Positions 979 through 62,819 of a DNA stretch of 64,000 bases are shown one piece after another (the stretch's first letter is position 1; each line of letters opens with the position of its first letter). The position numbers were made by a program, and so were the translations under genes. Below the pieces are notes generated by a model. That model had not been told where the DNA came from. It did not search any database and was given only the letters and a program-made list of their open reading frames with translations. Origin of the DNA: Diphasiastrum complanatum (taxonomy: Eukaryota > Streptophyta > Lycopodiopsida > Lycopodiales > Lycopodiaceae). The stretch spans positions 27,320,922 through 27,384,921 of the forward strand of contig CM055102.1 of the NCBI GenBank assembly GCA_029204225.1, written 5' to 3'.

Positions 979-1551
979 TTATTCTTCTATTCCTAATAGA
1001 GTACGAAACCTCTCAAATTTACATCTACCTAATGACTTAGTAAAAATATCTGTCATTTGATCTTTAGATCTACAAAAAACAAGATCAATGGCTCCATCAA
1101 GAATTTTCTCTCGAACAAAATGGTAGTGTATTTCGATGTGCTTGGTTCGAGCATGTAAAACTGGATTTTTGGCAAGGTAAATGCACTTTTGATTATCACA
1201 AGATATAGTAGTCGCATCCACCTGTGGTTGACCTAAATCCACAAGCAATCTTCGTAACCATACCGCTTCTTGTGTAGCATTGTTGAGTGCTCGATATTCA
1301 GCTTTCGTCGATGATATGACTACTATAGGTTGCTTTTTGCTGCTCCATGAAATTGTAGCTGTACCATAACTGAATGTATGACCACTGGTAGATTTTCTGT
1401 CATCAATATTACTAGCCCAATCGACATCTATATAACCTACCAACATTGGCGCTTCAAGCTGATCATACTTCAAACCAAAATTCAATGTCCCTCGAATGTA
1501 TCTGAGAATACGTTTAGCAGACTTCCAGTGTGCTTGACTAGGATCTTGCAT
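979..1551 (-). pseudogene. Copia A RNase H domain
   Basis: A 190-residue frame reading from the end of RT into RNase H, which removes the RNA strand during reverse transcription. Visible signatures are the DVDWAS block, the KSTSGHTF stretch, the SSTKAEY block with the catalytic Glu, SCDNQ with another acidic residue, and the KHIEIHYHFVRE and DIFTKSL blocks near the end, in normal order. The domain itself is nearly full length. It is out of frame with the RT piece at 1593-1994. The stop lies just before the purine tract, as expected for the end of a copia polyprotein. Confidence 0.85.
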
Positions 1552-1592
1552 ACTAATTGACTAACAACATCAACAACATAAGAAGTATCAGG

Positions 1593-2418
1593 TCATGTGT
1601 GTATCAAATAAATCAAACTACCCACCAGCTGTCTATACAGATAAGCATCCACTTTCTCAGATTCATCATATGCAGTAAGCTTCATGTTGACATCCATAGG
1701 TATACTCAAAGGCTTACAATCCTGCATATTAAACTTATAAAGCAAATCTTGTGCATATTTGCTTTGTGTAAGAAAGACCATGTCTTCCTTTTGCCATACT
1801 TCAATGCCAAGACAATAGTGCATCAATCCTAGGACAGTCATGTCAAAAGTATTGGAAAGATTTGATTTGATTTCATCGATTAACTTCTCATTACTTCTTG
1901 TAATAATCAGATCATCCACGTACAAGACAATGAACACTATATGTGAATCTTCTCTTAGAATGCAAAGATTAGGATCAGCATCACTCTTTACCATTCCTCT
2001 TCATTTGAAGTGTTCATCAATGCAAGAGTACCATGCCCATGGGGCTTGCTTCAATCCATAAATGGCACTCTCTCCCTGGCTCAACAAATCCTTGAGGTTG
2101 TACTAAGTACACCTCTTCATCCAGCACTCCATTAAGAAAAGTAGATTTAACATCCATTTGCTGGATCTTCCAACCATAGAAAGCAGAAGTAGCAATGATA
2201 GAACGTATAGTCACCATCTTAGCTATGGGCACAAAGGTTTTCTCAAAATCAATACCTTCTTGTTGCTTAAATCCTCTCGCAACCAACCGTGCTTTGTACT
2301 TGTTGAGTTGCCCATCTGTTCCATATTTGATCTTATAAATCCATTTGCAAGTGATAGGCTTCTTACCATCAGGTAGCTCAACCAAATTCCACGTCCTCTT
2401 TTTCGATATGGCTTCCAT
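1593..2418 (-). pseudogene. Copia A reverse transcriptase, two frames
   Basis: The N-terminal part (2017-2418) carries the WNLVELPDGKK start and the KYKARLVARGF and MDVKSTFLNG motifs. The C-terminal part (1593-1994) carries the catalytic YVDD in LYVDDLIIT and continues to the QLVGSLIYL connection region. The two halves are in different frames with a junction near 2000-2020, where the conserved KSLYGLKQ-type block has decayed. RT copies element RNA into DNA in a cytoplasmic particle. Both catalytic blocks are recognisable, but the gene is broken. Confidence 0.85.
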
Positions 2419-2424
2419 TTTTGT

Positions 2425-3530
2425 TTATATAACTGCACGCCACTCCTTGTGCTCCTTTGCTTCATCAATTTTTTTTGGTTCTTGAGCCTTGAGCACAGAG
2501 CCCATCAGGGCTAGATTCATCTCTAATCTTGCAGGAGGTTTTCGATTTCTACTTGATCTTCTAAGCTCTCCCTGCTCACTTGATTCGGGAGTATCTCCCT
2601 TATTAGCATCACTTGTTACTGACAAGTACCACTTAGGCACTCTCCTAGGAGTCTCATTATTAACCCTGTCTTTTTCCATTGGCTCTTCCATATGGACACC
2701 AACTTCTTCCTTCACTTGCACTTTCGCTTTATCATTAAAGGGATCAATTGTCAATTTTATCTAGTCATTTTGACCCATCTCATCAAAAGTAGCATCTTTG
2801 GAAATCACGATCTTTTGTGCATCTGTGTCATACATCCTGTATGCCTTGGCTCTTTCATCATATCCAAGGAAAATACACTTAACAACTTTTGCATCCAACT
2901 TCTTTCATTTTCATCAGGCACATGAGCGTAAGCATCACAACCAAATACTCGTAAATGAGAAACATTAGGTTTCTTTCCAGTAAAAGCTTTGTAAGGTGTC
3001 TTACCCTCCACGGACTTAGTAGGACACCGATTCAAGATATAAGTATTTGGCAAACCCTTGCTCTTAAGCATTGCCCTAGCCATCTCCACAATGGATCTGT
3101 TTTTCAGTTCTGCAACTCCATTCTGTTGTGGTGAATAGGGTGTAGTATTTTGTCTCTTGATCCCCTGATCCTTGCAAAAATTTATAAACTCTATTGAAAA
3201 ATACTCACCGCCACCATCTGATCTGAGGGTCTTAATATAACAACTTGTTTGTTTTTCAACTAGAGCCTTGAACTCTCTAAACTTGGCAAAAGCATCAAAT
3301 TTCTTGCTCATGAAGTAAATCCAGATATGTCTACTACAGTCATCAATAAATGTGATGAAATAGTAACAACCACTAATGGACCTAGTTTGTATTGGTCCAC
3401 ATAGATCACTATGAACAAGATCAAGAATGCCGTTGGCTCTTCTTGCTCCATCTTTGGGAAATCTCTTTCTATGATGTTTTCCCAAAATGCAACCCTCACA
3501 AATTTTTCCTTCAAAAGAAATATCAGACAA
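2425..3530 (-). pseudogene. Copia A integrase and integrase-RT linker
   Basis: The 241-residue frame 2805-3530 holds the end of the zinc-binding segment (CEGCILGKHH), then the core with the first Asp in LVHSDLCGP, the second in RSDGGGEY and the Glu in SPQQNGVAE, in normal D,D,E order. Residues near the end (VFGCDAYAHVP) are the usual copia C-terminal core. The next frame, 2425-2754, is the low-complexity linker with the RRSSRNRKPP motif that precedes RT. A frameshift near 2760-2805 separates them. Integrase inserts the DNA copy into the genome. Confidence 0.85.
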
Positions 3531-3671
3531 TCCAACAACTAGATTACCTCTTTATAGGATTTGCAAGCTTTGAGAACTAATATGACCAAACCTTTGATGC
3601 CAAAGGTCACTTCGACTATCAACAATGCTTACCATAGCTTGAATAAAAAATCTCGCATTCAATTTATAGAG

Positions 3672-4015
3672 TCAATTCTCGTGGACTCTAGCTCCTGTAG
3701 CAATCACTTTGTAGTGATTCTTGATGTCCTTGACAAGACATTTGTCGCTGTCAAACTCAACCTTGAGTTGTTGATCAGCCATCGTCCCAACAGATAGTAG
3801 ATTGTTAGCTAAGTCACGTACATATTGCACATTGCTTATCTGCTTTATCTTCCCGTTGGCTAACTTCACTGGTACCACTCCAACTCCTTTAACAGATAGC
3901 AATTTGCCATCAGCTTGTCCAACTTCATCACCATTGTTAGTTTCCTTGAGTTCTGAAAACCACTCTTTCCTTGAAGTCATGTGCTGGATGCACCACTATC
4001 AATGTACCAGGTATC
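3672..4015 (-). pseudogene. Copia A aspartic protease and pre-integrase
   Basis: The active-site triad D-S-G is encoded at 3992-4000 in the context YIDSGASS. Immediately after it the frame shifts into a 102-residue segment (3672-3980) ending in the NNLLSVGTMADQ and KCLVKD blocks typical of the protease to integrase region. The protease matures the polyprotein. The frameshift next to the active site would prevent a normal product. Confidence 0.8.
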
Positions 4016-4216
4016 CTTGGCTTCATCACTTGTCATTAATGTTGTAATGAACAATTTTGAACTTTCACCTATATCATTTTCATATTGATCATCATCGTAG
4101 TGATGTTGATCAGTATAATTGTCTTCATAATAATAGTCATCAAATTGATGTTGATCAGCATAATTTCCCGCTTGCTAGTTGTCTTTTCTTTGTTCCATCT
4201 CCTTCTGTTTCTTGAA

Positions 4217-5027
4217 GCATTCATGCTCCCAGTGGCTAGGTTTGTTGCAGTACCTACAATTTCCAGGTTTATTCTTGAGTAGCCTCGTCCTTGATCTCGA
4301 CCTTGATTCCAATTGCCTCGATTCGGACTATCATTTACTTGCTCATGAAATTGTTGAAATGATCCCCGGCTTGAGTTTCCTCCTCTTGATTGATACCTTC
4401 TCCTCTAACTGCAAGAGCTTGATCATAGCTCCTGTTACGATGATTCAAGTTCTCTTGACGTTGCTCTTCTTGCAAAAGCAATCCACCTAGTTCTTCATAG
4501 GTTGGAAGATTTTCTCTTGTGGCTATACTCGTCACAAACATCTAATGTGAGTCACTCAGACTATTCAATGTCAATTGCACGATCTCACGATCTTGTACTC
4601 GCTCTCCAATTGTTGCTAATTGGTCACGGATCTCTTTGATCTTCAGTATGTGATCGACAATAGTTGCACCATCATCCATTCGCAATGTATGCAACTTCAT
4701 CTTCAGAAATAATGTTCGAGATGTATTTGTCGTTTCAAACAATGCCTTCAGTGTATCCCATGCTTCTTTTGGTCCTTCTGAATCTGAAATATAGGAAATA
4801 ATTGCATCTCTAACTAGTAAGTTGATGACATTCTGGGCTTTCCGTTTTCTCCTATCAAATGTCCGCTGATCTTCTTCAATCACTGGCCTTGTCTCTTCAC
4901 CTGTCACGATCTCCCATAGCTCCTTTTCCATCAAAATGGTCTTCACTTTGAATTTCCAAACTGCATAGTTGTCAGCACCTTCCAATTTGCTTGACTCATT
5001 AAGGACACTCTCGCTTATAGTTGCCAT
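4217..5027 (-). pseudogene. Copia A gag with zinc knuckle
   Basis: The likely start is the methionine of MATISES at 5027. The following 160 residues match the plant copia gag domain: a YAVWKFKVKTIL block, then AWDTLKALFETT and a zinc knuckle near the end. The knuckle at 4217-4258 reads C-x2-C-x4-H-x4-C (CRYCNKPSHWEHEC) and is intact. A stop near 4541 and a frame change follow. Gag packages the RNA. Confidence 0.82.
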
Positions 5028-5097
5028 TACTGGATAGATGAGTCTGGACCACAAAATTTATCACACCACCTAACTGTAATTTTTTGGATGTACACCT

Positions 5098-5335
5098 GAT
5101 ATCGGTATGACACGCGGGTGCATGACTGCTCGGGATTCTCTTTAGCTTGCGCGCGTGGATCCAATATTGGTACAGGTATGCGATATCGGTATGACGGGCA
5201 GAACCGCTCAGTATTTTCTTTACCTTTGGCACGTGGATCCGATATTGGTACAAATATGTATATCTATACGCGCGGATGTACGACTGTTCAGGATTTTTCC
5301 TACCTCTGGCATGTCGATCCGATATTGGTACTAAG
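5098..5335. repeat. Degenerate tandem repeats in copia A leader
   Basis: About three diverged copies of a roughly 75-bp unit lie between the primer site and gag. Each contains a CATGACTGCTC-like block and ends with GATCC(A/G)ATATTGGTAC. Several ATGs occur here. Confidence 0.7.
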
Positions 5336-5591
5336 AAAATGAAAAGTAGAGAGAATATAAGAACTTTCAGAGGGAATATTCTAGATTCCTCACTACGACG
5401 TGGCGACTACGCTGTCTCCTCTTTGCAAAGATTTCGAAATGTGTGATCGTTCAAAGGACAAAGATCAGTAATGTGAAAAGTATGAAGCCTCCTAACTCTG
5501 AATGGCAGTACTAGACACTGTCTAGTGTGATTTGCGATACCCCAAATAGACAAATGAGAGATTTCTTGGCAAACCTCTCACACAAATGGCA

Positions 5592-5796
5592 CTTTTCACA
5601 ACAACTAGAAAGTATTTTAAAAAATTTCCCCCCACTCAACAGATTTTCAATCTGTCTGATACTGCCCTGGCCTTTCTGATGCCTTCGGGACTATGCTTTT
5701 CACAACAACTAGGAAGTATTGTAAAAATCTCTCCACTCAACAAATTTTCAATCTGTCTGATGCTGCCCTGGCCTTTCTGATGCCTTCAAGACTGTG
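5592..5796. repeat. 104-bp tandem duplication in copia A leader
   Basis: Two adjacent copies (5592-5695 and 5696-5796) share the start CTTTTCACAACAACTA and the end CTTTCTGATGCCTTC with a handful of substitutions and small indels. They lie in the untranslated leader downstream of the primer site. Confidence 0.85.
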
Positions 5797-5970
5797 TCTT
5801 CATTCCCCACTAATGATTCTAAGCTCCAAACCTGCAAAATACACCAAAAAAGGATTTCTTCCAGCCGTTTTTGTCTCTCCAAGCTTTCACCTCCCATGAA
5901 GGACTTTCTCAATTCATTGTAGAGCCTGTGACAAGTTGTATCCATTGATCAGGCACGTAGGACTATCACT

Positions 5971-5982
5971 GCTCTGATACCA
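5971..5982 (-). other. Primer-binding site of copia A (tRNA-iMet)
   Basis: TGGTATCAGAGC on the minus strand, directly adjacent to the 5' LTR. It is the standard plant copia site complementary to the 3' end of initiator methionine tRNA. Confidence 0.92.
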
Positions 5983-6232
5983 TGTCAATAATCAGATATG
6001 CAACATCAAGCATTCACCAACAAGAAGGCGGAAGAAGAACAGGCACTATCACTCTGTCACACTATCTCATATAGAATGTAAAATGTACAAATGAACCCTG
6101 AACCTTGATAGAGAGAGAAAACCTATGAGTAGACTAATAGACTAGCCTACGACTAATGACAGCTGGTCACAACTGTCAACACTAATGTACATCATAAACA
6201 ATAACAATGAAGTTTATCATTGATTTCTAATA
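5983..6232 (-). repeat. 5' LTR of copia A
   Basis: A 250-bp copy of 710-959. The outer end reads TTTCTAATA instead of TTTCTAACA, a transition that changes the terminal CA to TA. It is followed by the GAGAT duplication at 6233-6237. Confidence 0.92.
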
Positions 6233-6237
6233 GAGAT
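6233..6237. repeat. Target-site duplication of copia A, right
   Basis: GAGAT, identical to 705-709. Confidence 0.85.
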
Positions 6238-6278
6238 TAATGAAGATACTTTTAACAATGCTCAGAGGATCTCTATTT

Positions 6279-6890
6279 TTAATATATTTCATGTAGACTT
6301 CCCCCCCAATCAATGATCTTTCCATCATGAAATCTTATGTACAATGATGGATCATAAGAACTTAAAACAAAGTTGATGGAGATAAGAAAAGAGTTTAGCC
6401 TAGAGTACCATGCTCTAGGTGCTTGCTCAAGTCCATAAAGACTCTTTTTCAAAAAACACACTTTTTCTTCATGCTCCTCCTTGATGAAGCCCTCGGGTTG
6501 CCTCATGTAGATATCTTCTTCCAAGTAGCCATTGAGGAAGGCATGTGTAACATCAAGTTGAAATAGCTTCCAATTGAAAGTAGTAGCAAGGCTAATGATC
6601 AATCTTATTGTAACTAGCTTAGCCACAGGAGCAAAAGTTTCATCATAATCAATTCCTTTGGTTTGCAAGAAACCTTTTGCTACAAGCCTAGCTTTATACT
6701 TATTTATTGATCCATCTTGATTATACTTCAATCTATACACCCACTTGTAATCAAGTGGTTTCTTCCCTTGAGGAAGATCAACAAGTTCCCAAGTACGATT
6801 CTCCATGAGAGCATCATACTCCACTTGCATAACATTCATCCAACTTTTTGATTTACAAGCATCTTCATAGCAAGTTGGTTCATCGAGCAT
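6279..6890 (-). pseudogene. Copia reverse transcriptase fragment
   Basis: A 203-residue open frame covering the N-terminal two thirds of a copia RT: WELVDLPQGKK, KYKARLVAKGFLQTKGIDY, ETFAPVAKLVTIR, LDVTHAFLNGYLEEDIYM and a KKSLYGLEQAPRAWYSRL block (Glu where Lys is usual). It breaks off before YVDD, close to the right end of element A. It resembles the RT of copia C at 59350-60849, so both belong to one lineage. No integrase lies upstream, so it is an isolated piece of an older element. Confidence 0.85.
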
Positions 6891-7556
6891 TGAAATAAGG
6901 AAAGTGTATGAAGTAAAAGATAAAATGCCTTCCCTTTGATCACCTTTGCCATCTTAAGTGAGCCTCAATGGCTCGGCTCTTGATCTTGTGGATCGAAAAT
7001 AAGTGAATCATAGATGTAGTAGTTAAAGTATACACGCTTTTCTAAGTCTTATTCTTTAATAAGCAGCGAGCATTGAGCATTTTATACTATTGTCTTCTGT
7101 CTATTACAATCTTTGATATGAGTAGATTTGTAGTAATTTTGAAGTCTAAGTTTGTATTTCATTTCTACAATTTTCCAAAATATTGTTTCATAGCAACTCA
7201 GAGAAGGTAGAGCTATTGAGTGGGACCGTTAATTGTAGGATTAGTGTGAATAGAGAAGTTACCTTGAAGGCTTTACACAAGTAGCATAGAACCAAAAATA
7301 ATGTATATAAAAATGTGTGCAACATCAATACAAAACCATGTGTTTTCTGTTGTGTCTTGTGCCCTATTGATGAGTTGAGTAATAGTCATCTCTTTGCTCT
7401 AGCTTGTATTGTGAATCATCAAGGATCATCTTGAAGGTAGAAGTCTATCTACACTACATGTCTTATCTCTCAAGTAGCATAAAGATTCAATTTCTTTTGC
7501 AACAGATTCTTATAGATTTTGTTGATCCTTTTTTGTTGTTGTGAAAATACATAATT
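6891..7556. other. Intervening sequence, no gene
   Basis: AT-rich sequence between two copia remnants of opposite orientation. It may include LTR or leader of either, but no repeat pair, primer site or purine tract is identifiable. Confidence 0.4.
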
Positions 7557-13405: not shown

Positions 13406-13966
13406 TCACCAGCATTGATCTGTCTCCCAGTTGCAGCCGGCCCTCCATTCCCCCCGCCAGTTTCTAAATGCCATCACATCTCTGGAGCCAGAAGCTTTTT
13501 GTATTTGGTAGTCATACAGAGCTCTTGACTCTGGATCTTTCAAAACACTGTAAGCGTCGTAAGCTTCCATGAACTTCCTTTGGTACTCCTCTAGTTGATT
13601 TGGAGATGCAAGATCTGGATGAAACGCCTTCGCTATCCTTCTGAATGACTCTTTTAATTCGTTGTCTGTGACGTCCTCTGGTACTCCTAAAACATTATAG
13701 TGAGTTATGGACCTCTTTTCTTGCATAGTCATCCGTGCGCGTCCCTGTGTTGCTTGCGCAGGGCATAATCTTGGTTTTTGTTGCCACCAATAACATGCAC
13801 CCGAGTTTCGACTTACCTTCAGATGTCGAAAATCCCTAGTCTTCGCAGATGAAGCGGCTGATTCTATTGAGCAGCAGGCGGCGCTCTCCGGGCATCGGAA
13901 GAAGAAGAATTGCATTGGCAACGGGCACTGGATGTGTCTCAGCAAGGAAATAGCAGCCGTTTCCAT
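13406..13966 (-). CDS. Small plastid-type J-domain (DnaJ) protein
   Basis: A 186-residue single-exon frame. Residues 1-75 or so are rich in Ser, Ala, Cys, Arg and Lys with few acidic residues, as in a chloroplast transit peptide. Residues 89-154 form a J domain: the THYNVLGVP start, a KESFRRIAKAF helix, the HPD motif at 116-118 that stimulates the Hsp70 ATPase, and a DAYSVLKDPESRALYD end. The last seven residues, WETDQCW, are the C-terminal signature of small plastid J proteins of the J11 type, which argues that this stop is the real one. There is no zinc-finger or client-binding domain. A partner chloroplast Hsp70 is inferred. Met79 is a shorter alternative start. It is the only intact host gene here. 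Confidence 0.9.
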   Translation of the reverse strand: METAAISLLRHIQCPLPMQFFFFRCPESAACCSIESAASSAKTRDFRHLKVSRNSGACYWWQQKPRLCPAQATQGRARMTMQEKRSITHYNVLGVPEDVTDNELKESFRRIAKAFHPDLASPNQLEEYQRKFMEAYDAYSVLKDPESRALYDYQIQKASGSRDVMAFRNWRGEWRAGCNWETDQCW

Positions 13967-14053
13967 TTCAGAAAAAGCACATATCCGGTTTCTTGTTTGG
14001 TTTATCTGTGTTCTAAACCTTGCACAAAGAACCTAATCTGATGTTTAGCTTTT

Positions 14054-16190: not shown

Positions 16191-18645
16191 ATGGCTGGAC
16201 AAAACATTGTTGGTGATAAAATCTCAATAGCTCAATTATGGTAAGGTTTTGGGACCAAATGCAAGGCTTACTTATTTGAAAAATTTACTAGGGTGTTTCT
16301 CACATAAAGTCTTAGGGACCATATTGCATAGATAGTTATAAGTCATGTATAAAGTATTTGAAAATTTTTTGGCAACATACTCCAACTAAATCGAGTTCAT
16401 GCACAAAGCTATTTCATCAAAAAATCACTTTACAACTTTGTGGAACTTTATAATCTAAAAGACAACATAGAGCAAAACTAATGTGAAGAGTGGCCAAGTT
16501 TCCTAATAAATTGCCTCCAACATTACACAACCCAACATAGTTGTAAGCCATAGAAACCAAATCACCATGAGATGACAACTTTGCTAGATCCTTCAAACAC
16601 AAACTTGACCTGATATTTTCCATATCTATTGCAATTAACAACCATTTCAAAACATGGCAACTATGCTTGGGCACTCTCCAATGTGACTGTGGAAGAATGT
16701 AACCCACTTTGCATCTAAGTGCTTATTTAACAAAACCAATTCTCTAGTATTAACATTGGCTATTATGTTGTAATGAGTAAGTAAATCTTTCGATGATACA
16801 CAATCCTTGTCTAGACATGCATTCCTTTTGCTATGGATCAACATAAACAAACACGTTCAATCACATCCTCTCCCTTCAATAGATGTCTACTGATCAAGAG
16901 AGAAAGATATGCTTCCCACCATATTAAAACTTTGTTGGCATACCATTAAGACCATGCGCCCTATCCTTACTCATATGGCAGAAATCCCTCTTCAATCACT
17001 CTATCTCAAAGGGTAATTAGAGGTTCCGTAGCTTCTTCCTCAACTAGAACTTTCTATGTACAATAATAAGACTCCCAAGAGATGGCTCCATCTCCTTTAA
17101 GATCTTGAAGTTATTGAATTTTTTTTTAGAAAGTCTCCTAAAACTATCTAATTTTCCTAGCTTATCACGTTTATATTAACTTCATAATGTTCTTTATTTA
17201 TTATTTTTTCTTCTCAAAATCATATTGTCCTTTTTAAGCTATCTAAGATAGAAAGTATATGGAGGTCACCATTTTGTGCATAATGTCCTACTCTGACTAC
17301 TCAAACCATTCAAGAGTATAGACACATCTTCTTTGTCTCAAACTCTAGGTGCATAAACTCCAACTAGCCAATATTCTTAGGGAAGGACCCTAAGGAAGCT
17401 TTCATCATACAAAGTTGATTTAAGTACATGAGTTAGTCTATGTCTACAATATAAAGTTGATGTAATTACTTAAGGTTAGGCTTTGTACATGGTTAATATT
17501 TGTGAGCCTTTTGACGAGCCAAATTATAGTATGTGCATGTGTTTTTCATCTCGTAGTTAACATGTAGTTAGCATAAAATGTTTTATAATTAACTTGACAC
17601 CTGGAATGGTTCTATCAAATCTAGTAGAGTGGCGAAAGTCTTTTCTCAATTTATAGTATAATAAAAAAGAGCTGCATCTCCTCTCCATATAGTTCATGGA
17701 TTTGCAGGTATCTTCATACACACCATTTTGAGAAAAAGTTGGGTGTACTATGCTCAAGTGAGCTCTTTCATTAAAATACCATCCATTGGTACTGAACCTT
17801 TTGATTGTAATATCAATTTTCTCTCAATTTGTGCTTTCAATGTAATGTCATTGGTATGAATATTTATTCTTAGTGGATTACAATGTGATTGAATTTTTTG
17901 ATCATCAATCCAACAACAACACACATTTGGAACTATATCGTAGAAGGAGATTTGCTAATTTGCACTCATGCGCACAAGAAACACTATTAGAACAGAGTAT
18001 CCTATGTGGGAATTGCAAACATCACTAGACATCTCCAATTATTATCCAGGTCACTATGATAATAATCCAAAGTGTGTCACTCTTTTTGAGTTGCCATAGA
18101 CATTATTCACAAATTTAATAGATGGTCATAATTTTTCTTTTCAAATTTTTTATTCAAATCATATGATCAAAAAACTTTCTACCACATCAATAGTAACTTT
18201 TTTAAAACATTTATGAACAAACTTACGTAACAAAAACCGCAATAAGTGGTTCTAGTTGTGGAAAACATATTTTAGCCATTGTTTTGAACAAGAGAATGTT
18301 AAGATTCACCAATGATAAGACCTTTGGTTAAACCATTAGAACTAGAATCTGGTTTAAATTTCCAAGTAAAACACGATGACATTTGTTTTGGGACTTTGAC
18401 CTAAAAAAGAGTAATCTTTTTTGGTGTTTTTTAATGGTCCTAGTTCTAGGCCAAAATCATGGATTTTTTTAATAAATCTCTAAATTTTGTTTTTTCAAAA
18501 AATCCAAAAAATGCATATTATAAATAAAGAACTACAAGTTTTTTGTTGCAAACTTCATAAAGCCATCATAATTACAAATGAAATAATAACTCGAAATCCC
18601 ATTGAAATACAAAACAACTTAAATTATATTTGCACATTCTTTTTT
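16191..18645. other. AT-rich sequence, no gene recognised
   Basis: Short minus frames at 16417-16850 and 17557-17757 match no family I know and are not conserved-looking. The left end of the transposon module should lie in or near 18200-18645, but no terminal inverted repeat could be found by eye. Confidence 0.35.
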
Positions 18646-21600
18646 TTAAAGTACATTTTCTAAGGAATTTTCACTGATGCATCTCAATTCAGAACTTGAC
18701 ATGTTCTCAACACTCTCGTTTTCAGCTGATGAAGTGGAAGACCCATCTTCGTCATCAGAGTCAACTGACATATCTTCCTTAGAATCCGTGTCTAATGTTG
18801 ACAAAAAACCTTGTAAATCAGCTTTTCTCTGTTGATGATGAGTGGAGGATGATGGTTTTTCCAGTAATCCATGTCGTTCTTTCAATATAGGTATAGTTGA
18901 CTTTCGTAGATGATTGGTCATTGTTAATTCAAAATTAAATGCCAAACATCTACATCTTGTAGATTCAAATCGTCGACTCTTGGTTGATTTTTTGGCAGTA
19001 TCTTTCTCTTGCCCTTTGGATCTACTTGCAACATTGTGAGTTCGTACCTTCCCAAAAAAGCATTCGTTGAAGTGGTGCGCAACCAATGGACATGTAGTAC
19101 TTTTGTTTGATTGCTATTTTGAATAAGACTAAGTACTTTGGCAATCCAAAATGGATGTCCTCCATTGTTTTCTGAAGCTAGAAGTGGAACAAGGCTTCCA
19201 ATTTGGATTTCATTCAAATCACCACACCATTTCATTTTTGCAGCTTTTACACACCCACATAAATTTCACGTTCCTCACCTTGCACAAGCTGCAAGAAATC
19301 ATTATCTCGAGGAAGATATGAAGTTTCGACAATTGTAGTTGATGTTCCTAATTTATGAGGCCAATGAAATTTTTCAGTTGTTGATGTATGTTCGAGATTG
19401 AGCAAATCGATTTTTTGTTCCTCGAAAAAGTCCCAATGTTGATCAAACTCATCAAAAAAATGATAAGCTGCATGAATATCTGATTCCAAAAAATATAATG
19501 AGGGAAATGGATCAATCTCACGATGTTCTCTTTGCGCCTTTTGTTCTTCTAGCAAGAACTTCAAGGGAGACAACACAACAATCTTGATTTGAGTCGATGG
19601 AATACTAAGCAAAAATCGAACTCCTTCAAGAGGTAGCCATGAAACTGAATCTGAAAATAGTTTGTCCCATAATAATATAATGTCTGATTCGTTACATTTG
19701 ATTTTATACTAGTGTTGAAAGCTAATATCATTAATATTAGCTACGCATTGCTCTGTTTCATTGGACGCCTTAACATAATCACGAAAATCATATGTGTATC
19801 TGATTAATGACACGTTTGGCTTTGGCACATACGATTTCTCAACAATGCTTTGAAGCCTTGGTAAAGAAAATGCTTTCTTGCGTCTCAACCTCTTAGAAAA
19901 GCAACTAAACATTTGATCAATTTGATCGTGGGCTACCAACAAAAATCCTATTTTTATTTTTTTGAAATTCTTTTCTCCACTAGCATGGACAAGTATGCCA
20001 AAACAGTTTGGTTTTTATTTTTCCTAGCAGTGTTGTCAAGCTCCAAATAAAGTATTTCTGGAAGATTTTCACCAAATTCGCAAATTATCTTATGTACAAT
20101 GGTGATCGTCAAATTTGGATCGTTTCGAATATTGGGATAATTAAAAAAGACCTTGGACTCTCAAGTGCCATTAAACACAAGTGCTCCAACGAGATGAACC
20201 TGAATAGAATCTGCCTCGTTCAAATTTTTGGGCACTCTGACAAAATGAGACAACATTGTTTTCTTCTGATCCATGCCATCAATAACAAGGCCCAGATATT
20301 TTTGTGGATATTCCAAACATTTTTTTTCGATGCTTTGCCAACTTTTGTCTTTCAACTGTTTGTTGATCCCTATGCAGTTGAAGAGCTTTTGCAGCATCCA
20401 CTAAAAATACAATGATTCACTTATTTAATAGAATAAAGATCATACCATAATGATATTAAAAAAGATTGCAACTTAAATTTTTTCAAAACAAAAAGTATTA
20501 AAATGAAAGACAAATTTGATTAATATTTACCTTTCTCATCATTGGTCTTTGCAAGTTGTTTTGTAGACTTTAAAAACTCGCAAGTGGAGCATACTGTCAT
20601 TCATGTTTTTTTAAAAATATTTATCAGTCCAAAATCTCTTTTCCAAATTCGAAAAAAATATGAAACTCGAATATGGAACATTTTTTGTTTTGGCAAACTC
20701 TTTGTACATCAAAAATAATTTTAATTTTGTAAAATTATCTAGCAAGTGAGAATATAAGAAATTAGGCAATTTCTCTCCATGCACATCTATGAAATGTTTT
20801 AGCCAAGCAGTTGTATTTAAAGCATCTGGAGAAACAGTTCGACCTTGTAACGATCCCGTAATGTTGGGTCTTTCTGAAGTCGTGCATGCATTCGTTGAAG
20901 CCGTGAGTTTCCGATTGCGTGAACTGCTTTGTAATCTTTGCAACAAACCTCCAAAGCATTTAAAAAATACAAAAATGAGTTTTGTCCAGCCTCACTGTTA
21001 CACACAAATAGTAATTTCTCTCATCCTTACTTCGTAAAAAGAAGTTTGATCTTAATTTTTCAATTTTTCTGATACTCAGCTTTTGCAAACAACAGGATGA
21101 GCAGCAAATAATATTCTGTATCTTTCGAATCTCAGATTTTGTAATCAACTGTTTTTTACGATTCGTTAAATCAGGTGAGGATCTCAAGTCTCTCTTGTAT
21201 TTTTCTTTTTGTTTGGAGTCTGATCTATAAATTGAACTTGTAACACTAGTAGGTGCTTGAACTGGTTGATAATGTGTTAGAATTTCATGACTCGAAATTC
21301 TGGCTCCAACCTCAAAATGTTCTGGACCCTCAGAAGGTTCTAAATTTTCAACGAATATAGGCCTTTTAGATTTAACACAATGAACATCACTTTGAGAAGG
21401 TCTCCTACGAACATGAGGAAAGCTTGAACGTTGCGGATCAACAGACTTACGCAGACTGTTGATTTACTAGAATCAGTAACTGAGTTAATTGAAGCTTTTG
21501 ACTCATCACTCAACGATTCAACTTGTTCAAAAAAACAATGTTCTAATTGTGTAGAGCTTGTATCTGAAGAGGAGGACAAGGTCGAAAGATTTGACACAAG

Positions 21601-21822
21601 TTGAGTTACGGACGTCATTTCTTGAAAAGTACTTGCGTGAGGAATTTCAGAAGATGAACGGGTAAATGATGATGATGTCACATCATTTATGAAAATATGT
21701 TGAGAATCAGGAGTGACTTTATAGAAAAAGCTTTCATTGGAAATATCAGATGAAGATGATGCACTTGTTGCAACGTATTGAGTTACAACTACTGGAATAG
21801 AAGAGGTAGAACTACTTGACAT
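18646..21822 (-). pseudogene. DDE-type transposase (DUF7869-like), decayed
   Basis: A broken minus-strand gene of roughly 1,000 codons. The Ser-rich N-terminus starts at 21822. Next come a CCSSCCL Cys block near 21090, a VCCKDYKAVHAIG block near 20920, a WLKHFIDVHGEKLP block near 20780, and a CSTCEFL Cys pair near 20575. After an intron there is a core with VIDGMDQ (Asp at 20278), LELDNTARKNKNQ (Asp at 20035) and AHDQIDQMFS near 19910. These three acidic blocks in this order fit an RNase-H-fold transposase of the DUF7869 group. That family name is from memory and needs a profile search. The C-terminus (18924-19235) has a PFWIAKVL to VHWLR block like a chromo or BAH-type module, then an acidic Ser-rich tail. 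Frameshifts near 19090, 19240, 20160, 20325 and 20800 and stops between make it inactive. Confidence 0.72.
20401..20530 (-). other. Intron in the transposase gene
   Basis: On the minus strand a GTAAATATT donor follows AATGATGAGAAAG and a TATTTTTAG acceptor precedes TGGATGCTGC. Joining across 130 bp keeps one frame and makes a continuous stretch with the C-x2-C pair, then H and ERQK residues. The interval is AT-rich, as in plant introns. Confidence 0.65.
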
Positions 21823-22079
21823 CGTAACCTTAAAAAATATTCTAACTATGTACTTATGCTAAGCATAGACCCGTTAAAATAGTTAACACATAAAATTGAA
21901 TGTGCTCCACAAACTTAACTGCAACCTATGTTGGTCATAGAACAAATAAAAAGCTATGTGAACCTCAATAGATGGAAACAAGAAAAACAACTAAATGCAA
22001 ATGAGCAACAAGCCTAGAAAGTAACTGGTTAATTGAAATTTCCAATGGCTACCATGCCTTAAATATTGTTTGGCAGCAT

Positions 22080-22131
22080 CCTTAGGGTTAGGGTTGACCC
22101 AAGAGTAGGTTTAGGATTAGGTTTAGGTTTG
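22080..22131. repeat. Interstitial telomere-like repeat
   Basis: TTAGGGTTAGGG near 22083, then AGGTTTAGGATTAGGTTTAG at 22106. Variants of the plant telomere unit TTTAGGG, also the sequence of the promoter telo-box. Too short to be a telomere remnant with certainty. Confidence 0.6.
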
Positions 22132-22367
22132 GACGGTCCCGGCTTAGACTCGAGGTCGGCGTGACGTGAGGTGAGTCGTGGCAATTCGGCCCCGACGCAA
22201 GCTCGAGGTCGGCGAGAAGTGAGTTGAGTCTCATGCTCCAAATCGGCGTGAGGCGAGGGTCTGGAAAAAAAAATTATTTAAGGACCGTAGTCCAAGCATA
22301 ACTCACCTCATCTGTGAATTCAGAATCACACATGCTGCCAGAGCTCTCGCTGCGACAAAGTCACGGA

Positions 22368-22382
22368 TTTTTATAGTATATT
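22368..22382 (+). promoter_or_regulatory. Possible TATA box of the methyltransferase gene
   Basis: TTTTTATAGTATAT at the 3' edge of the GC-richer island, facing the plus-strand gene. No transcript evidence. Confidence 0.35.
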
Positions 22383-22566
22383 GCATACGTTCTCGCTCAC
22401 ACATTTCTTGACGGTAAGATTATTGTCATTTTTTAACTTTGTTCTATGCTTAGCATGGGTACTAATTTTTTGCATTACTAAATATTCAGGTTTTAGCTAG
22501 TGTTCATCTTCTTAAAACTTGGGTGACCTATGCTCAGCATAGGTGGCTGCACGAGTCCTCTCCTCT

Positions 22567-22939
22567 AACCTATGTTGAGCATAGGTTGTGTTCGGGTCCT
22601 AAGTAACAACCTATCCTCAGCATAGGTTGTCGGCGAGATGTTTCTATTCTTACCACATTTTGACCTATGCTGAGCATAGGTTGCATCTCTGGTCCTCTTC
22701 TAACCTATGCTCAGCATAGGTCGTTACTTGCGTGCTCTAGTCCTACCTATGCTCAGCATAGGATGTCTTCGCATGCTGCTTGCTAACCTGTGCTTAGTAT
22801 AGGTTAGAAGAGGACTAGAGATGTAACCTATGCTCAGCATAGGTCGATAGGTGATAAGAATAAAAACATCACGCCGACATCCTATGCTGATCATAGGTTG
22901 TTACTCAGGACTCAAACACAACCCATGCTCAACATAGGC
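22567..22939. repeat. Large inverted repeat built from the palindromes
   Basis: The left arm 22567-22721 pairs with the right arm 22786-22939 at about 88% (roughly 19 mismatches in 155), including the spacers between palindromes and the two 54-bp steps. The 64-bp centre holds one further palindrome at 22745-22763, which sits on the axis. RNA or single-stranded DNA from here would form a long hairpin. Confidence 0.9.
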
Positions 22940-23378
22940 TGTTACTCGTATTTTTTCCGTTTTACAAGGCTTAGTCTTAGAAAAGTGAAACTTTTGAGAT
23001 GTTTTAGTAAGAAAATGTGTTGAATTTTTAGTTATGATTTTTAGAGATGTTTCACAAAAACTGCTTGTCTATTTGAAGTTTTCTAGGGTTGCCGATGGTC
23101 AACTTTCTTTGGCAGAAATGAGAAAAGAATTTTAAAGGTAATAGTCATAATCTAAATATTTATTTTCATGTTACTTTTTGTAATAAAGTGATTTTCATGA
23201 TTTTGTTGGATTTTTAACAATTATACTTTTTAAATGCAGGCATAAATTATTTATGAAAGTTCAAGAAGCCCTTGTGATAGGGTTAAATTGTCAAGATTTC
23301 GAAGAGTGCTAGAGGCTTTATCCTCTGAACAGCCAAAATGAATCTTTGAGTCCATTTCTGATTTTGTTTAGAGACATG

Positions 23379-23558
23379 GTATTTATTTCACCCATGCTTA
23401 GCATAGGTGCTTATTAATTGTTTCTTTTTTATATTTTATGTCTCCTATGCTAAGCATAGTTTTTTATTTATTTAATTATTTCTTTTTTATACTTTAAGTC
23501 TCCTATTCTATTTTATATTTTATGTCTCCCATGCTAAGCATAGCTTTTTATTTTTCAG
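23379..23558 (+). other. Methyltransferase intron containing three palindromes
   Basis: GTATTT donor after GACATG and TTTTTCAG acceptor before TCTCCCGAAG. It is T-rich, 180 bp, with palindromes at 23390, 23443 and 23527. Confidence 0.55.
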
Positions 23559-24011
23559 TCTCCCGAAGATAAGAAAAACAAAGTCCTTCCAAGGCAATTC
23601 AAGAGACATATTCTGAAGACAAAAGTAGAAAAAAGGAACAGGGAGAGATTAGCACGGGGTGAGACCATTGCGGAGGAGAATCCATTAGAGACCTACCTTC
23701 CCAAAGGTGTCGATGATCAACCATGTTTTTACTTAGTTGAGGAGGACGATTGTAGAGAAATTTCAATTTCTTTTACAAAAAAGGCCTTATACACTCTACA
23801 TTGTCTATATACCATATGGATTTCAGATGAAGGAATAATTAAATGACGATTCTCCCTTCAAATTCACTGAAATCCATAGTTTCATGCAGGGTTTTCTCGA
23901 GTCACAACTTCTCCAATTTGGAGAGTTGTTATTTTTCATTCTTCTTGGCAGTCAGCTTCAATATAGAAAGCTCTACTAACTTTCTAATGCGGGAATAGAA
24001 AATGCTGTGTG

Positions 24012-24084
24012 GTAAGTTTTAAGTTCCTGAATTATTAATTCATATTTTAATTCATAATTATATTTTAAATTTTTTATTTTAAAG
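24012..24084 (+). other. Probable second methyltransferase intron
   Basis: GTAAGTTTT donor after GCTGTGTG and a TTTTAAAG acceptor; very AT-rich. The frame is not preserved across it, so either an indel occurred or the acceptor is elsewhere. Confidence 0.45.
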
Positions 24085-24662
24085 TTAAATTTTTAACCGT
24101 CGGTTATTATTCTTTGGATAACAAACGCTCGATGCTTCATTACAACATTTCCAGACTGACAAGTTTTGGAAACTTGTTTCAGTATTCAGCCGTGATCAAG
24201 AAATTAAAGAATCCAATGACAGGTTCCGTGGCTTGTCCCTACCAAAAGTCACAACAATTAATTAATCATTTAATTGATATTTTTTCTCATCCAACTGATT
24301 GAGTTTTGGATTTATTTAGCGGTAGCGGCACTACGAGCGCATGTGCTGTTCAGAAAGATAGACATGTTGCTACAATAGATTTAGATTCTAAACTAGTTGA
24401 TTTTGTAAAAATGAGAATGAAATCTCTTTCAGTTTTGTCAAATGAACTATCTGAGGTGGGAAAGAGTTTAGATAGCGAGGATTCAGTAATTCCCTTGTCC
24501 AAGGAATCTCAGCCTCCTACTAGCAGAAAAGTAGGCGATATAGGAGAATTTGCTGATGTCTTGGTTCAAGATTATAATGTGGTTACGGTAGTCGAGAAAA
24601 CTGTAGAAGAGGTGCCACTTGAAACTATAGGGCTACTCAAGAAAAAAAAAAAAAAGATGTAA

Positions 24663-25900
24663 ATGAACTCGATGATTTTTGAGAATAAAAATTTTCTTTT
24701 GTTTCAGAAAATAATTGCATTTATATTTTTTGAAGTATTGTGTTTTGAATTTTTTTTTATTGATTTAATGTTCTTAATTTGTGTTTTAATGATTTAAAAT
24801 TAGAAATTTGAAACTTTTAAAATTTTTTAACATTGATAATCATTACCAAAACTAAAATTGTAACGATTTGTCAAGTTTATAATATTTTAATTTTGGATGT
24901 ATTTTTATAATATTTGTTATAAAAAAAAATATTGTTAGGAACTTAAAGAAATGAAAAAAAAAAATTCAAGGTGATTTAAATATTTTCACAAATCATTTAA
25001 TTTTGATTATTGTAAAGTAATTTCATTTGAGTTTATTTAATGTTTAAATATTCAATGAACTTACATAGGTATAAGTAAAAATTTTAAAATTTTTAAAATT
25101 TTAAAAAATAATGATTAAAAGTTTTATTTTAATTTAAGAAATATTTTTTTTGATACAAGATTGTAATTCAAAAAACTTTTAAAATTCCAAAAAAAAAACT
25201 ATAAGTTTTGTTTTAAATAAGCAAAAAATATGTTCTAGTTATTTTAGTGGTTGTGTATCTAATGATTTTATTTTAAATAGTATTATTATTTTATATAAGC
25301 TAATTTTAAGTTATTTATGAAAATCTATTGACCAAATTTTTGTAGGTTGAATTATTTTCTTGCAAAATACAACATTTTTTTAACATTACAATATATTTAT
25401 TTGAAGTATTTTAAATTTGGATACTTTTTAAAAAAAATTAAAAAATTTGAAAAAAATGGGTCTCCATGTCATTTCTCTTTTTTTTGGTCATCATGTTATA
25501 AGTATTTTTTCTTAGCAAATAAGTTCGATATAAGAGATAGTCTCTCAAATATTTTGCTAATAATGAAGTTGCCATTAATAAGCTGTATAAAACAATGTTG
25601 ATGTGCCGTATTTCAAATTTCTAAATATGTCGTACAATTTTTACTATTTACTATTAAAATTTAGCAAGTCATAGAAAGATATTTGCACCAAATGTAGAAG
25701 TGAAAATTGGTCAATACAATTATGGTCCATAATACAAAGTAAATAGTCATCAATAATCAATTCATAGAAGGACTACACACCATGATCATAAGTACATTGC
25801 ATAGATAATACAAGATCGAGGTCTAAGAAGAACATGTCCATGACATTTTTATGTTAGAAGTACATTGGCAAAGCCAAATTATTAAGCACAAGTACTATAA
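24663..25900. other. Very AT-rich sequence, no gene
   Basis: Long A and T runs and no recognisable coding sequence; the frame at 25347-25601 is low-complexity. The right end of the transposon module should be here, but no terminal inverted repeat is evident. Confidence 0.4.
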
Positions 25901-47432: not shown

Positions 47433-48634
47433 TCACGGTTGGTGCCTTTGTATCTTCGTCAAGTTCAGCATGTTGAAGAACTTCTGATGCTTGATCCTAG
47501 GAAGTGCTTTGGTGAAGATGTCTACGACTATTTTTGTTGTGGAGAAGTATTGAAGGATCACTTGCCCTGAGAAGACTTTCTCCCGAATGAAATGATACTG
47601 AATTTCTATGTGCTTGGATTTGCCATGAAATCTACATAACATAAAATGTGATTTAGATTTCCCTGAATATATCTCATCACTTTCTTTAATGCTATCCAAT
47701 GAGAGATCCTAGGACTAGACATGAATTGACTTAACATGCTTACAATGTATGTTAAATATGGTCTAGTACACAACATTGCATACATCAAAGATCCTATTAG
47801 TGAATGATAAGGGTACTTCGCTATGTCGAGTTCTTCACTATCAGAATCAACACAAGTAGGTTTAGTCAATAGTATACTTGGATCCATTGGAGTATCAATT
47901 GGTCTGCAATTAGACATATGAAATTTTTTAAAAATGCCTTTTAGATATGTGTGTTGGCTAAGATAGATCTTCTTCTGAAGTCTATTTCTAGTAATGTGAA
48001 TTCCTAGCAAAAAATGGACAGCTCCTAAATCAGTCATGTCAAATTTCTTTGACAGATCACTCTTAGTAGTGTGCAGAAGAGAAGTGTCGTTAAAAAAAAT
48101 AAACGCATCATCTACGTAAAGAGCTATGTGAACTAAAGTGGTGCGTATATGCTTTGAATAAACATTACAGTCAACTGAATTGTTTGCAAATCCCAATTGA
48201 ATGAGATAGGAGTTGATTCTATCAAACCATGCTCTTGAGGCCTGTTTTAGACCGTAGATTGCTTTGTGCATCTTGCACACTTTGTGCTCTTGGCCTTTGA
48301 CTTCGAATCCTTACGCTTGGAAGGTGTATAACTCATCTTCGACATTGCCATTGAGAAATGTTGTCTTGACATCCATTTGATGCATTTCATGGTCTTTCAT
48401 GGCTGCTAACGCAATTAGAGTCTTGATTGACTGCATTTTGATGACATGACTGAAATTTTTTTGATATCCTTTAGCCACCACCCGTGCTTTCCATTTAACA
48501 ATGGAAGCATAAGAGTTGATCTTCTTCTTGAAGATCCACTTGTTGTCGATAACTCTCTTGTGAGAGGGAAAGTCGACCAGTGTCCAGGTCTGGTTCGTCA
48601 AAAGTTCGCTTTTCATAGCTTCTTGCCACTTCAC
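47433..48634 (-). pseudogene. Copia B RT with remnant RNase H
   Basis: The N-terminal part (48311-48634) has WTLVDFPSHKR and MDVKTTFLNGNVEDELY. The next frame (47606-48280) has MHKAIYGLKQASRAWFDR, the catalytic YVDD in IALYVDDAFIF, and SLIGSLMYAMLCTRP. RNase H is mostly deleted: the sequence jumps from the end of the RT region to KHIEIQYHFIREKV and DIFTKALPR. A frameshift near 48300 separates the two RT halves. Confidence 0.83.
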
Positions 48635-48669
48635 AGCATCCTTGGAGTTAATTGCTTCGGCTAGGCTTT

Positions 48670-49900
48670 CTAGTTCTTCTGATGAAGTCCAGAATGATTG
48701 AGGTGTACCGTGAGGACGTTTGGTTGACCAAGATGTGATGATGCTTCTTCTTGAATTTCTCCAGATCTGTTTGAGCTAGCTTGGTCTAGTCTGATGACAG
48801 GTACTGTCGGCTGCTCGGCTTCTGTAGCTGTAGCTGCAGGTTCTATAGAAGGAACATCATCGTTGGAAGAATCCATGCTACATAAAATAGATGAAATGAT
48901 ATAGCATCGTTTATCGATGGTTGTTTAAAATCATAGTATATATGTTCTTGAAATATTACATCCCTAGAGACAAATACTACATTGGTGGATGGATCGTAAA
49001 CTTTATAAGCTTTATGTTCATCAGGATAGCCAATGAAAATATATTTATTTGTCTTATGATCCAGCTTCTTCCTAAGCTGTTTAGGAATGTAAACAAAACA
49101 TATACAACCAAAAATTTTTAAATGGCTGACACTAGGCTTGTGTCCATGCCAAACTTCATAAGGAGTTTTATTGTTGACGGCTTTGGTGCTGGATCTGTTC
49201 TGTAAGTAACAAGCTGTGGTAGTAGCTTCTGTCCAGAACTTCGCAGGTAGATGTGATTGATGTAGCATGGATCTGGATGAGTTGAGAAGAGTTCGGTTCT
49301 TCCTTTCTGCAATCCCGTTTTGTTGAGGTGAATAGGAAGTGGTGAACTGTCTTCTAATACCATGTTCAGCCATGTAGTCAGACATGTCGTTAGAGAGGTA
49401 TTCGTTGCCACCATCAGTTTGGAGTGCTTTCACTTTTGTAGACATTTGTGTCTCAGCCATGGCCTTGAATCTCTTGAAGCATTCAAAGGCTTCAAATTCG
49501 TGCTTAATGAACAAGACTGTAGACCATCTAGAATAATCATCTATGAAAGTGATAATATAGATTGCATATCCTAAGGGCGGAGTTGGCATTGGACCACAAA
49601 GATCGCTATGTACAAGATCCAATACATGTTTTGTTTTGATGGAATGTGATTTGGGAAACTTGCTTCTAGAGTGCTTCCCATAGATTCATGATTCACAAAA
49701 GAAAGATTTGCTATCCAATAAAGAAGAGAAATACAATCCATCAACTAAATTATTACAACGCATATAAGAAAGTGATCTTGTATTCACGTGTCCAAATCAA
49801 CTATGCCATAGAATAACATTATCGTTTACATTTTCATGGGAGATACTAGCTAATGCAACTGAAAGAGGAGGAGTGTGAAGAATTGTCAAAAATTGACAAA
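48670..49900 (-). pseudogene. Copia B integrase
   Basis: The 259-residue frame 48843-49622 is a nearly full core: LVHSDLCGPMPT (first Asp), ALQTDGGNEYLSND (second Asp), SPQQNGIAERKNRTL (Glu), then the VWHGHKPSVSHLKIFGC end and VYDPSTNVVFVSRDVIF. 48670-48876 is the acidic linker to RT. The N-terminal zinc-binding region (49623-49900) is present with stops (VILWH, FGHVN). Element N inserted just upstream of it. Confidence 0.83.
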
Positions 49901-51285: not shown

Positions 51286-52264
51286 ATGGGATATGCTGGA
51301 GCATACCTTCTAGAAGCTAGTGAGAGATTGAATTCTACAAATTATGCTATTTGGAAGGTTAGGATGGAGTCACTCTTGGTGCTCCAAGATCTTTAAAGAT
51401 GAAGATGAACCTCTAGGTGCACAGGAGTTAGCTAGATACAAGAAGAGATCTAGGCTTGCACTTCATTGTGTGAAGATGAATGTGAGCAATGATTTGTTGA
51501 GAGAAGTATCAGCATGTACTAGTGCTAAAGAGGCTTGGGAGTCTTTAAAATCAATCTACAAATCTAGCAACACTTCTAGAGTTCTTATGCTTAGAAATCA
51601 GAATTTGCAAAGCATGAGGAGAAGTGAGGAGAGTGCACATGATTATGTACTCAGAATCGAGTCTCTAAATAGGGAGTTGGCTTCCATTGGAGAGAAGATT
51701 CATGATGGAGAGCTTGGACAAATTTTTCTTAATGGTCTTCTTTTCTTGAGAAGACACCATCAAGACTTTGCAAATTTGGTCCAAAGTTTTGCCATCCAAG
51801 ACACTTTGCCAACTATAGAAAAACTTTATTGTGTATTAGTGGCTGAAGAGTGTAGGATGCTCCATGCAAAATCTAGGATGAGCTCCTTGTCTTTGCATAA
51901 TGGTGATGAGAAAGCCAATTTCTCATTCAAGGGCAAAAAGAAGACCAATGGAAAGAAAAAGCATCCAAAGGAGGCCAAAGAAGAGGATGATGCATCAAGC
52001 TCAAAGGACAAGTCAAAGCAAAAATGCTTCTTTTGTGGAAAGAAGGGGCATTATGCATCTGAATGCTACAAGAGGCTAAGAGCACAAGTGGAGGAGGACA
52101 AACAAGGAAACCTTGCAAAGGAGGAGGAGGAGGATGAAGTAGATGTATTCTTGATGGCATCTACATCCTCACCAACAAGCAATAGCAATTCAGGAGACAA
52201 TTGGTGGATCGACAGTGGGGCTAGCTCCCACATGTCTTGTGAAAAGGACTTTTTCTCAACCTAA
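51286..52264 (+). pseudogene. Element N gag and protease
   Basis: ATG 51286 opens MGYAGAYLLEASERLNSTN; a stop at 51394 and a frame change lead into a 306-residue frame with the gag domain (RLALHCVKMNVSNDLL, AWESLKSIYKSSNTSRVLM), an intact zinc knuckle C-x2-C-x4-H-x4-C (CFFCGKKGHYASEC), an acidic stretch and the protease active site WWIDSGASSHM. A stop at 52262 follows. It closely parallels copia C gag at 62020-62789, so N belongs to that family. Confidence 0.85.
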
Positions 52265-52345
52265 CACTCTTTCAATGCTTCTAAAAAGTTTGTCTTTACT
52301 GCAAATGATGAAGAGTGTAGGATAGATGGTGTTGGCACCATCTCT

Positions 52346-53437
52346 TTGTGTCTAGAATCCTCAAAATGCATGGATCTAGAAAATGTCCTTTATGTACCAT
52401 CAATCACCAAGAATATGCTTAGTGTTGGTCTATTCTTAGAAAGTGGTTTGGATGTCCACTTTAAGCATAGTGTTTGCTTCATCTTGAAGAATGATGTTTG
52501 CATTGCAAAGGGATTTAAACATGGAAGATTGTTTAAGTTGGAAGCTAGTGTTGCATTTGAGTGGGTGAGCTTGGCAAATGAGAAGATCACTCAAGAGGAG
52601 ATCTTGGCGAAGTGTGATCTTGCTTGCATTGAGGAGGAGCATCAAAAGGAGGAAGATCTTGAGGATCAGCCTCAAAGCATGAGAGTTCCAAGGGAGTCCT
52701 CAATGACAATGGTCAAGTCATCAAATTGCATGCAAATTGTCCATTCAAGTGTGCATCTTGCAAGGGTGGTGAGCATTGGAGAGTCTACTATCTTTGAATA
52801 CTTTTTGGAAAGTATTAGTAGACATGAGGTGACTTGTTTCTTACCTTTAAGATCTATGGTATTTAGTACTCTTTATGACAAGACAATGAAATTAGATGCT
52901 ACATCTGTTGTTGATAAAACAATTTCATTGGATAACTATTTTTGTAATAGTTTGAATAGAGTTATAGAAGATGAAATATCATTTGTATTGGAAATCTTTG
53001 GGTCCACATGCTTTGAGCATGATCATTCCAATGTAAGGACCAAAGATTATCCTATTTCAATGATAGGAATAATGGTAGTGTTTTGCTCTTCAAGTAGAGA
53101 TTGTAGAATCTATTTGTTTTCCATCAAACAAGTTGTCAATGGTGGAAATGTGATCTTTCAAAAGTGGAAGAATTGTAAACTTGAAGAAGCACCTTTGGAT
53201 CAACACCTTATTCAATTCATTGTTGGTTTGGAGTCAAGTCAAGTGGAGGAGCAAGCTCAAGACCCAAGGACTCCAAGAAGGACCTTGAGTATCAAGATGG
53301 AGCCATTGAGGCTCAATCATATGGATCAAGCAAGGCAAACAGTCTTTGACAACAATGTGTATGCACTTAATAGTTTAATTGATGTATCTTCAAGTGCACA
53401 AAATGCCTTGGAATCCATGGCTTGGCATGATGTATAG
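52346..53437 (+). CDS. Element N ORF with unknown segment in place of integrase
   Basis: 363 codons without a stop. Residues 1-80 are the protease to integrase linker (CLESSKCMDLENVLYVP, ITKNMLSVG, GRLFKLE), matching copia C. Residues 296-363 match the integrase to RT linker (DPRTPRRTLSIKMEPLRL and the AWHDV end, compare VWRDAM). Residues 81 to about 295 match neither integrase nor any domain I know: no HHCC, no D,D,E. This part is acidic first (EEEHQKEEDLEDQPQ), then hydrophobic and Ser/Cys-rich, and remains open although the rest of the element is damaged. The frame upstream stays open back to 52267 but the gag stop separates them. It could be captured host sequence or an old non-autonomous gene. 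Confidence 0.6.
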   Translation: MCLESSKCMDLENVLYVPSITKNMLSVGLFLESGLDVHFKHSVCFILKNDVCIAKGFKHGRLFKLEASVAFEWVSLANEKITQEEILAKCDLACIEEEHQKEEDLEDQPQSMRVPRESSMTMVKSSNCMQIVHSSVHLARVVSIGESTIFEYFLESISRHEVTCFLPLRSMVFSTLYDKTMKLDATSVVDKTISLDNYFCNSLNRVIEDEISFVLEIFGSTCFEHDHSNVRTKDYPISMIGIMVVFCSSSRDCRIYLFSIKQVVNGGNVIFQKWKNCKLEEAPLDQHLIQFIVGLESSQVEEQAQDPRTPRRTLSIKMEPLRLNHMDQARQTVFDNNVYALNSLIDVSSSAQNALESMAWHDV

Positions 53438-58836: not shown

Positions 58837-58845
58837 CTCCTCCTC
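58837..58845 (-). other. Polypurine tract of copia C
   Basis: GAGGAGGAG on the minus strand, adjacent to the LTR. Confidence 0.8.
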
Positions 58846-61543: not shown

Positions 61544-61555
61544 CTTAAAAAGTCT

Positions 61556-61980: not shown

Positions 61981-62019
61981 TTGTGCATTCTTCTTTTTAA
62001 AGCATTCAAAAGCGAAGTG

Positions 62020-62789: not shown

Positions 62790-62819
62790 TATGAATGGTT
62801 TGCTCTTTAAAATGCACAA

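Follow-up and report, generated by a model that had tools for sequence, protein, structure and literature searches.

Some DNA transposons carry an accessory gene for a ParB-like protein joined to a DNA methyltransferase, and these are a known kind of element, since such genes have been reported in algal transposons. In Ectocarpus, the 21.5-kb Sola-1 element Sola1-1_Ec32 carries a ParB-like and N4/N6 methyltransferase gene opposite its transposase; its authors suggest that proteins of this kind may bind the transposon that encodes them and modify it, and mention green and red algal cases, citing Iyer 2011 and Petroll 2025 (PMC12477816). Here we describe a land-plant transposon family represented by a decayed copy in a 64,000-nucleotide stretch of Diphasiastrum complanatum DNA (contig CM055102.1; hereafter the window). 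Like Sola1-1_Ec32, this family has a ParB-methyltransferase fusion on the strand opposite the transposase; domain fusion and opposite-strand encoding within one element, the two features of these accessory proteins, are thus both found here. Whereas the algal element is 21.5 kb long and brown-algal, the window family is about 9 kb long, occurs in land plants in very many copies and has identifiable site arrays. The available text on Sola1-1_Ec32 does not mention a palindrome array (PMC12477816), and our literature search found no report of a spread in land plants, of palindrome arrays or of this scale. The algal cases thus qualify an initial annotation of the window, which knew of no description of this gene pairing in plants; for land plants, we likewise found none. 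New here are the arrayed 19-bp palindromes in the divergent promoter region of the element.

Other systems share single features with this family. In VANDAL transposons of Arabidopsis, introns and other noncoding stretches contain arrays of short, transposon-specific motifs that differ between related families (PMC5735166), and arrays of this type are common to both systems. However, the protein involved there, VANC, is another one and leads to loss of DNA methylation, VANDAL motifs have one orientation whereas those of the window family are palindromic, and the accessible part of that paper mentions no methyltransferase. KDZ and other fungal transposons carry base-modifying enzymes, the TET/JBP dioxygenases (PMC12730594), but these act by oxidation and accompany different transposases, whereas the window family would act by methylation. 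Bacterial and phage beta-class methyltransferases (CcrM, M.BceJIV, RsrI; PHROG 67) have the same fold, with motif IV before motif I; unlike them, the window-family enzyme is eukaryotic, intron-bearing, ParB-fused and transposon-borne. Sola elements are described as having 4-bp target duplications, a DDD transposase and terminal inverted repeats from 11 bp up (PMC10741241), and all three features are present in the window family.

Two divergent genes in one mobile element

The three acidic motifs on which the initial annotation had based a transposase, VIDGMDQ, LDNTARKNKNQ and HDQIDQ, are present on the minus strand in that order. The joined read-through of this gene matched the Pfam family DUF7869 at E=2e-38, and two core pieces matched it separately (E=7e-17 and 2e-17). 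In a Pfam scan of the read-through and four relatives, DUF7869 was the sole family above the cut-off; Pfam includes a KDZ transposase model. Motif conservation was scored on 23 aligned relatives out of 53 found (Table 1). On the plus strand, PYG precedes FSGSGTT as had been proposed, which is the beta-class order; in the family, ADIPYG, a variant of DPPY (majority reading of 17 copies), is followed by DLFSGSGTT. Pfam N6_N4_Mtase was matched by the joined methyltransferase read-through (E=5e-12) and by the joined majority reading (E=1.6e-15); further matches were to phrog_67 (E=9e-21) and, for the read-through, to beta-class enzymes in the PDB (E=3e-5 and weaker). In fuller copies, the methyltransferase has an N-terminal ParB-like domain, and in the protein P0056 positions 313-453 matched ParB-type N-domains by fold, while positions 688-924 matched beta-class methyltransferases. 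From these matches, the encoded protein is predicted to fuse a ParB-like domain with a DNA amino-methyltransferase of the beta class, whose target is most likely N6 of adenine. From the family and the fold, we infer that the element modifies DNA. Both genes of the window copy are interrupted: the transposase contains several frameshifts and stops and the methyltransferase both stops and frameshifts. The third transposase motif has also lost residues (AHDQID versus GHTHD in relatives).

The source genome (1.74 Gb, 5176 contigs) was searched for further copies. At first look, the methyltransferase exon had 2136 candidates and one transposase exon 2022; 150 of each were scored (all 150 listed with E<0.001). 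Between these two sets, 19 methyltransferase-transposase pairs lay at most 15 kb apart, compared with 0.39 expected. The genes face away from each other in 17 of the 19 pairs, as they do in the window; the two same-strand pairs, C14 and C746, are spaced identically and probably represent a single locus that was assembled twice.

Alignment of the window copy with three others, for which extra flank was included, revealed two identical break points in all four. The 31-bp left end had 509 genomic matches at one mismatch or fewer (reversed control, 0), and the right end was matched in 14 of 21 sequences, comprising the window and 20 stretches fetched around high-scoring methyltransferase matches. 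The 11-bp terminal repeats have the sequence AACAYGATGAC and contain one mismatch in the window copy. Exact 4-bp target duplications (AACT, AATA, TATA, TTAA) flanked four of eight two-ended copies; three, including the window copy (GTAA/ATAA), matched at three of four bases, and one lay within a TC repeat. In three further copies tried for target duplications, the right end was not found. Three fuller copies measured 8.5-9.4 kb, and relative to the 9.1-kb copy L041 the window copy has an internal deletion of ~1.9 kb that includes the ParB-like exons. The window copy is a relic, with both genes broken and an internal deletion. Because other copies, also in another plant lineage, keep both genes together between common ends, the transposase and the methyltransferase are parts of one mobile element, as had been supposed; one gene has been lost from many copies. 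Both checks named in the initial annotation, the family profiles and the pairing in other copies, came out in its favour. The element extends further (18370-25497) than the 18646-24662 first assigned to it. It fits an abundant cut-and-paste DNA transposon that is Sola-like in having a DDD transposase, short repeats at its ends and target duplications of 4 bp.

Palindrome arrays and relatives in other plants

The window palindrome, ACCTATGC-TNA-GCATAGGT, is 19 bp long and consists of two 8-bp half-sites around a 3-bp centre. At two mismatches or fewer, the window element has 15 sites, and its flanking 6,871 bp have none; at three or fewer, the whole window has 19 matches, of which the three that lie outside the element have 2-3 mismatches (2.8 expected by chance). 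Four complete copies, related by descent, contain 66 sites, with none in 18,363 bp of flank. A fuller copy has about 17, located between both genes and in a methyltransferase intron. In the four complete copies, the central base is evenly spread (A17, G15, T15, C19), as expected for the binding site of a dimer. The perfect palindrome occurs at 1517 genome sites (reversed control, 0), and among 50 perfect sites listed, 47 have another site within 600 bp, as counted by eye. The divergent layout of the shared control region in the initial annotation stood, but the array there had gone unmentioned; its idea that the element marks its own ends is unsupported, the recurrent sites sitting mid-element. 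The array is also an inverted duplication (22569-22721 versus 22786-22938; 153 nt, 88% complementary), which suggests how the array grew.

DUF7869 transposases were also present on eight contigs (L001-L008; CAKZGI) of a bacterial reference bin labelled Trichormus, a cyanobiont. These contigs are very likely DNA of Azolla, the fern host; plant-type transposons in this bin thus appear to be host-DNA contamination. The methyltransferase was divergent from the transposase in all five contigs with upstream room (L003, L004, L005, L006 and L008), the other three being too short to show gene pairing. A complete element spans 391-8114 of L006, with an exact AACA duplication and imperfect terminal repeats of ~33 bp, compared by eye, that begin AACACG; no matching target-site duplication was found in L008. 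A single long open transposase frame of 873-924 amino acids with the three motifs is present in seven of the eight contigs, the frame of L008 being split. The methyltransferase exons are open, with L003 and L004 stopping short of motif I. The ratio of nonsynonymous to synonymous differences (pN/pS) was 0.05-0.32 for the methyltransferase (23 exon comparisons) and 0.18-0.40 for the transposase (21 comparisons), synonymous sites being saturated in many of these. These sequence comparisons indicate that the Azolla-associated methyltransferase is under strong purifying selection. Across 17 copies in the source genome, variants common to at least three copies numbered 70/49/106 at codon positions 1/2/3, those in two copies 69/45/61 and singletons 205/181/170. 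The divergent pair probably recurs in Riccia, judged by the consecutive locus tags of a transposase (R1sor_010795) and a methyltransferase (R1sor_010796), whose contigs are also listed with equal length. A further DUF7869 relative, at 70-483 of contig L009 in a Flavobacteriaceae marine bin, is possibly eukaryotic contamination.

Most of the Azolla-associated elements carry another palindrome, GTCGATRC-NNN-GYATCGAC, which shares the location and the 8+3+8 length of the first. In the region upstream of the transposase, L003 had 10 full sites, L004 13, L005 1, L006 4, L002 and L007 2 each, and L001 and L008 0; outside the upstream regions, these contigs had no full sites and two lone half-sites. 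Different palindromes of the same design suggest, by analogy with VANDAL/VANC, a recognition site that may be co-evolving. At L004:2594-3285, palindromes GTCGATAC..GTATCGAC and GTCGATGC..GCATCGAC occur every ~50 bp, partly alternating and with some mixed-half sites, as if a site were changing in step.

Possible roles of the methyltransferase and its sites

The palindromes and the methyltransferase together suggest self-labelling of the element's DNA. The palindromes would be bound by a dimeric protein that the element encodes, for which the methyltransferase, through its ParB-like/helical part, is our best candidate; the enzyme would then methylate the control region of its own element, with the effect that both promoters stay active or that cytosine methylation by the host is countered. 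Judging from sequence, we see an even chance that palindromes guide self-methylation, most likely via the ParB-like protein, and so keep the element active. The palindrome-binding protein, the methylated base and the anti-silencing purpose are what we infer. In a bolder form, which we regard as possible but doubtful, the array would act like parS, as the place where the ParB-like part of the element's own N6-adenine methyltransferase loads, and the non-host mark then spread over the element would serve self-recognition and activity; this would be a sequence-specific self-labelling system of bacterial origin in eukaryotic chromosomes, its operator having co-evolved with the protein across land plants.

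Several observations weigh against self-methylation that keeps the element active. C-to-T decay was 0.06-0.20 at CG, 0.06-0.19 at CHG and 0.04-0.11 at CHH sites, with A/T transitions at 0.013-0.044; CHH decay was exceeded by CHG in 16 of 17 copies and by CG in 13 of 17. Such decay in the CG and CHG contexts indicates that insertion was probably followed by silencing of the family through 5-methylcytosine, despite its methyltransferase gene. Pfam scans of the methyltransferase gave no ParB hit, the fold match to the DNA-binding part of ParB had a large root-mean-square deviation (9.9 over 133 residues), and the two structure models were both imperfect (mean predicted local distance difference test scores of 51 and 73). 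L008 is a clear exception in having no palindromes despite a complete divergent region; L001, with only 518 bp upstream, also has none. Transposase remains were found within 7.5 kb in only 8 of the 20 methyltransferase-picked copies (one of them, L050, a fragment) and in none of the other 12.

The palindromes could instead serve the transposase, or both proteins, as operators or enhancers, with methylation timing transposition to replication and hemimethylated sites being permissive. Dam methylation times IS10 transposition in this way. The site that precedes the transposase ATG by about 30 bp, the position of the arrays between both promoters and main-array spacings of mostly 40-42, 54 or 84 bp, near whole helical turns, would agree with such a role, but the absence of the palindrome from the terminal repeats and the three sites within a methyltransferase intron would not, and we consider it unlikely. 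It is improbable that the methyltransferase lays a repressive mark limiting its own copy number: bdelloid N4CMT does silence transposons, but this family reaches about 2,000 first-look candidates per gene, and self-repression would seem harder to keep under selection across lineages. A methyltransferase carried as passenger cargo, or present as an independent gene nested by chance, is very improbable and largely refuted by the same divergent order and matching ends in two plant sources and by the strong purifying selection on the methyltransferase, although transposons are known to capture genes and many copies retain only one of the two genes.

If the element does label its own DNA, its interest would lie in eukaryotic DNA adenine methylation, which is contested, as is what places it. 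A plant transposon family keeps a bacterial-type methyltransferase under selection together with candidate recognition sites, which would turn a one-line suggestion on algal transposons into a testable protein-site pair. Some N6-methyladenine signals in seedless plants may be transposon-borne, and the family is possibly a second case, beside VANC, in which transposons have evolved a sequence-specific means of controlling the chromatin they lie in.

Features of the element and its surroundings

Table 1. Features of the transposon copy, in window positions.
Feature	Position	Strand	Remarks
Whole transposon copy	18370-25497 (7128 bp)	.	Alignment breaks against L041, L043, L053
Left target-site duplication GTAA, probable	18366-18369	.	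3/4 bases shared with right one
Left terminal inverted repeat AACACGATGAC	18370-18380	+	
DUF7869 transposase gene, decayed	18646-21822	-	Profile matches, motifs
BAH-like domain of transposase	19020-19250 (approximate)	-	
Third acidic motif HDQIDQ	19913-19930	-	Preceding GHT, invariant in relatives, damaged here
Second acidic motif LDNTARKNKNQ	20008-20040	-	D and N invariant in relatives
First acidic motif VIDGMDQ	20266-20286	-	D at least 90% conserved in relatives
Likely transposase intron	about 20410-20550	-	By eye
Region with 15 palindrome sites	21854-23543	.	Consensus ACCTATGCTNAGCATAGGT
One palindrome site			Just upstream of transposase ATG
Main palindrome array, 11 sites	22444-22937		
ParB-like/beta-class methyltransferase remains, C-terminal exons, decayed	23070-24662 (start approximate)	+	
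Three palindrome sites in methyltransferase intron	23392-23543		
Catalytic motif IV remnant PYG	23812-23820	+	ADIPYG in majority reading of 17 copies
S-adenosylmethionine-binding motif I FSGSGTT	24315-24335	+	
Right terminal inverted repeat	25487-25497	-	GTCATCATGTT on plus strand
Right target-site duplication ATAA, probable	25498-25501	.	

The window is rich in retroelements, with many copia-type polyprotein fragments at 979-6953, 47606-49685, 51332-53437 and 58844-62840, as judged by eye from the open reading frame list. A DnaJ-like open frame, perhaps plastid-targeted, was noted by eye at 13406-14032 on the minus strand and may be an ordinary gene of the host that lies close to the element.

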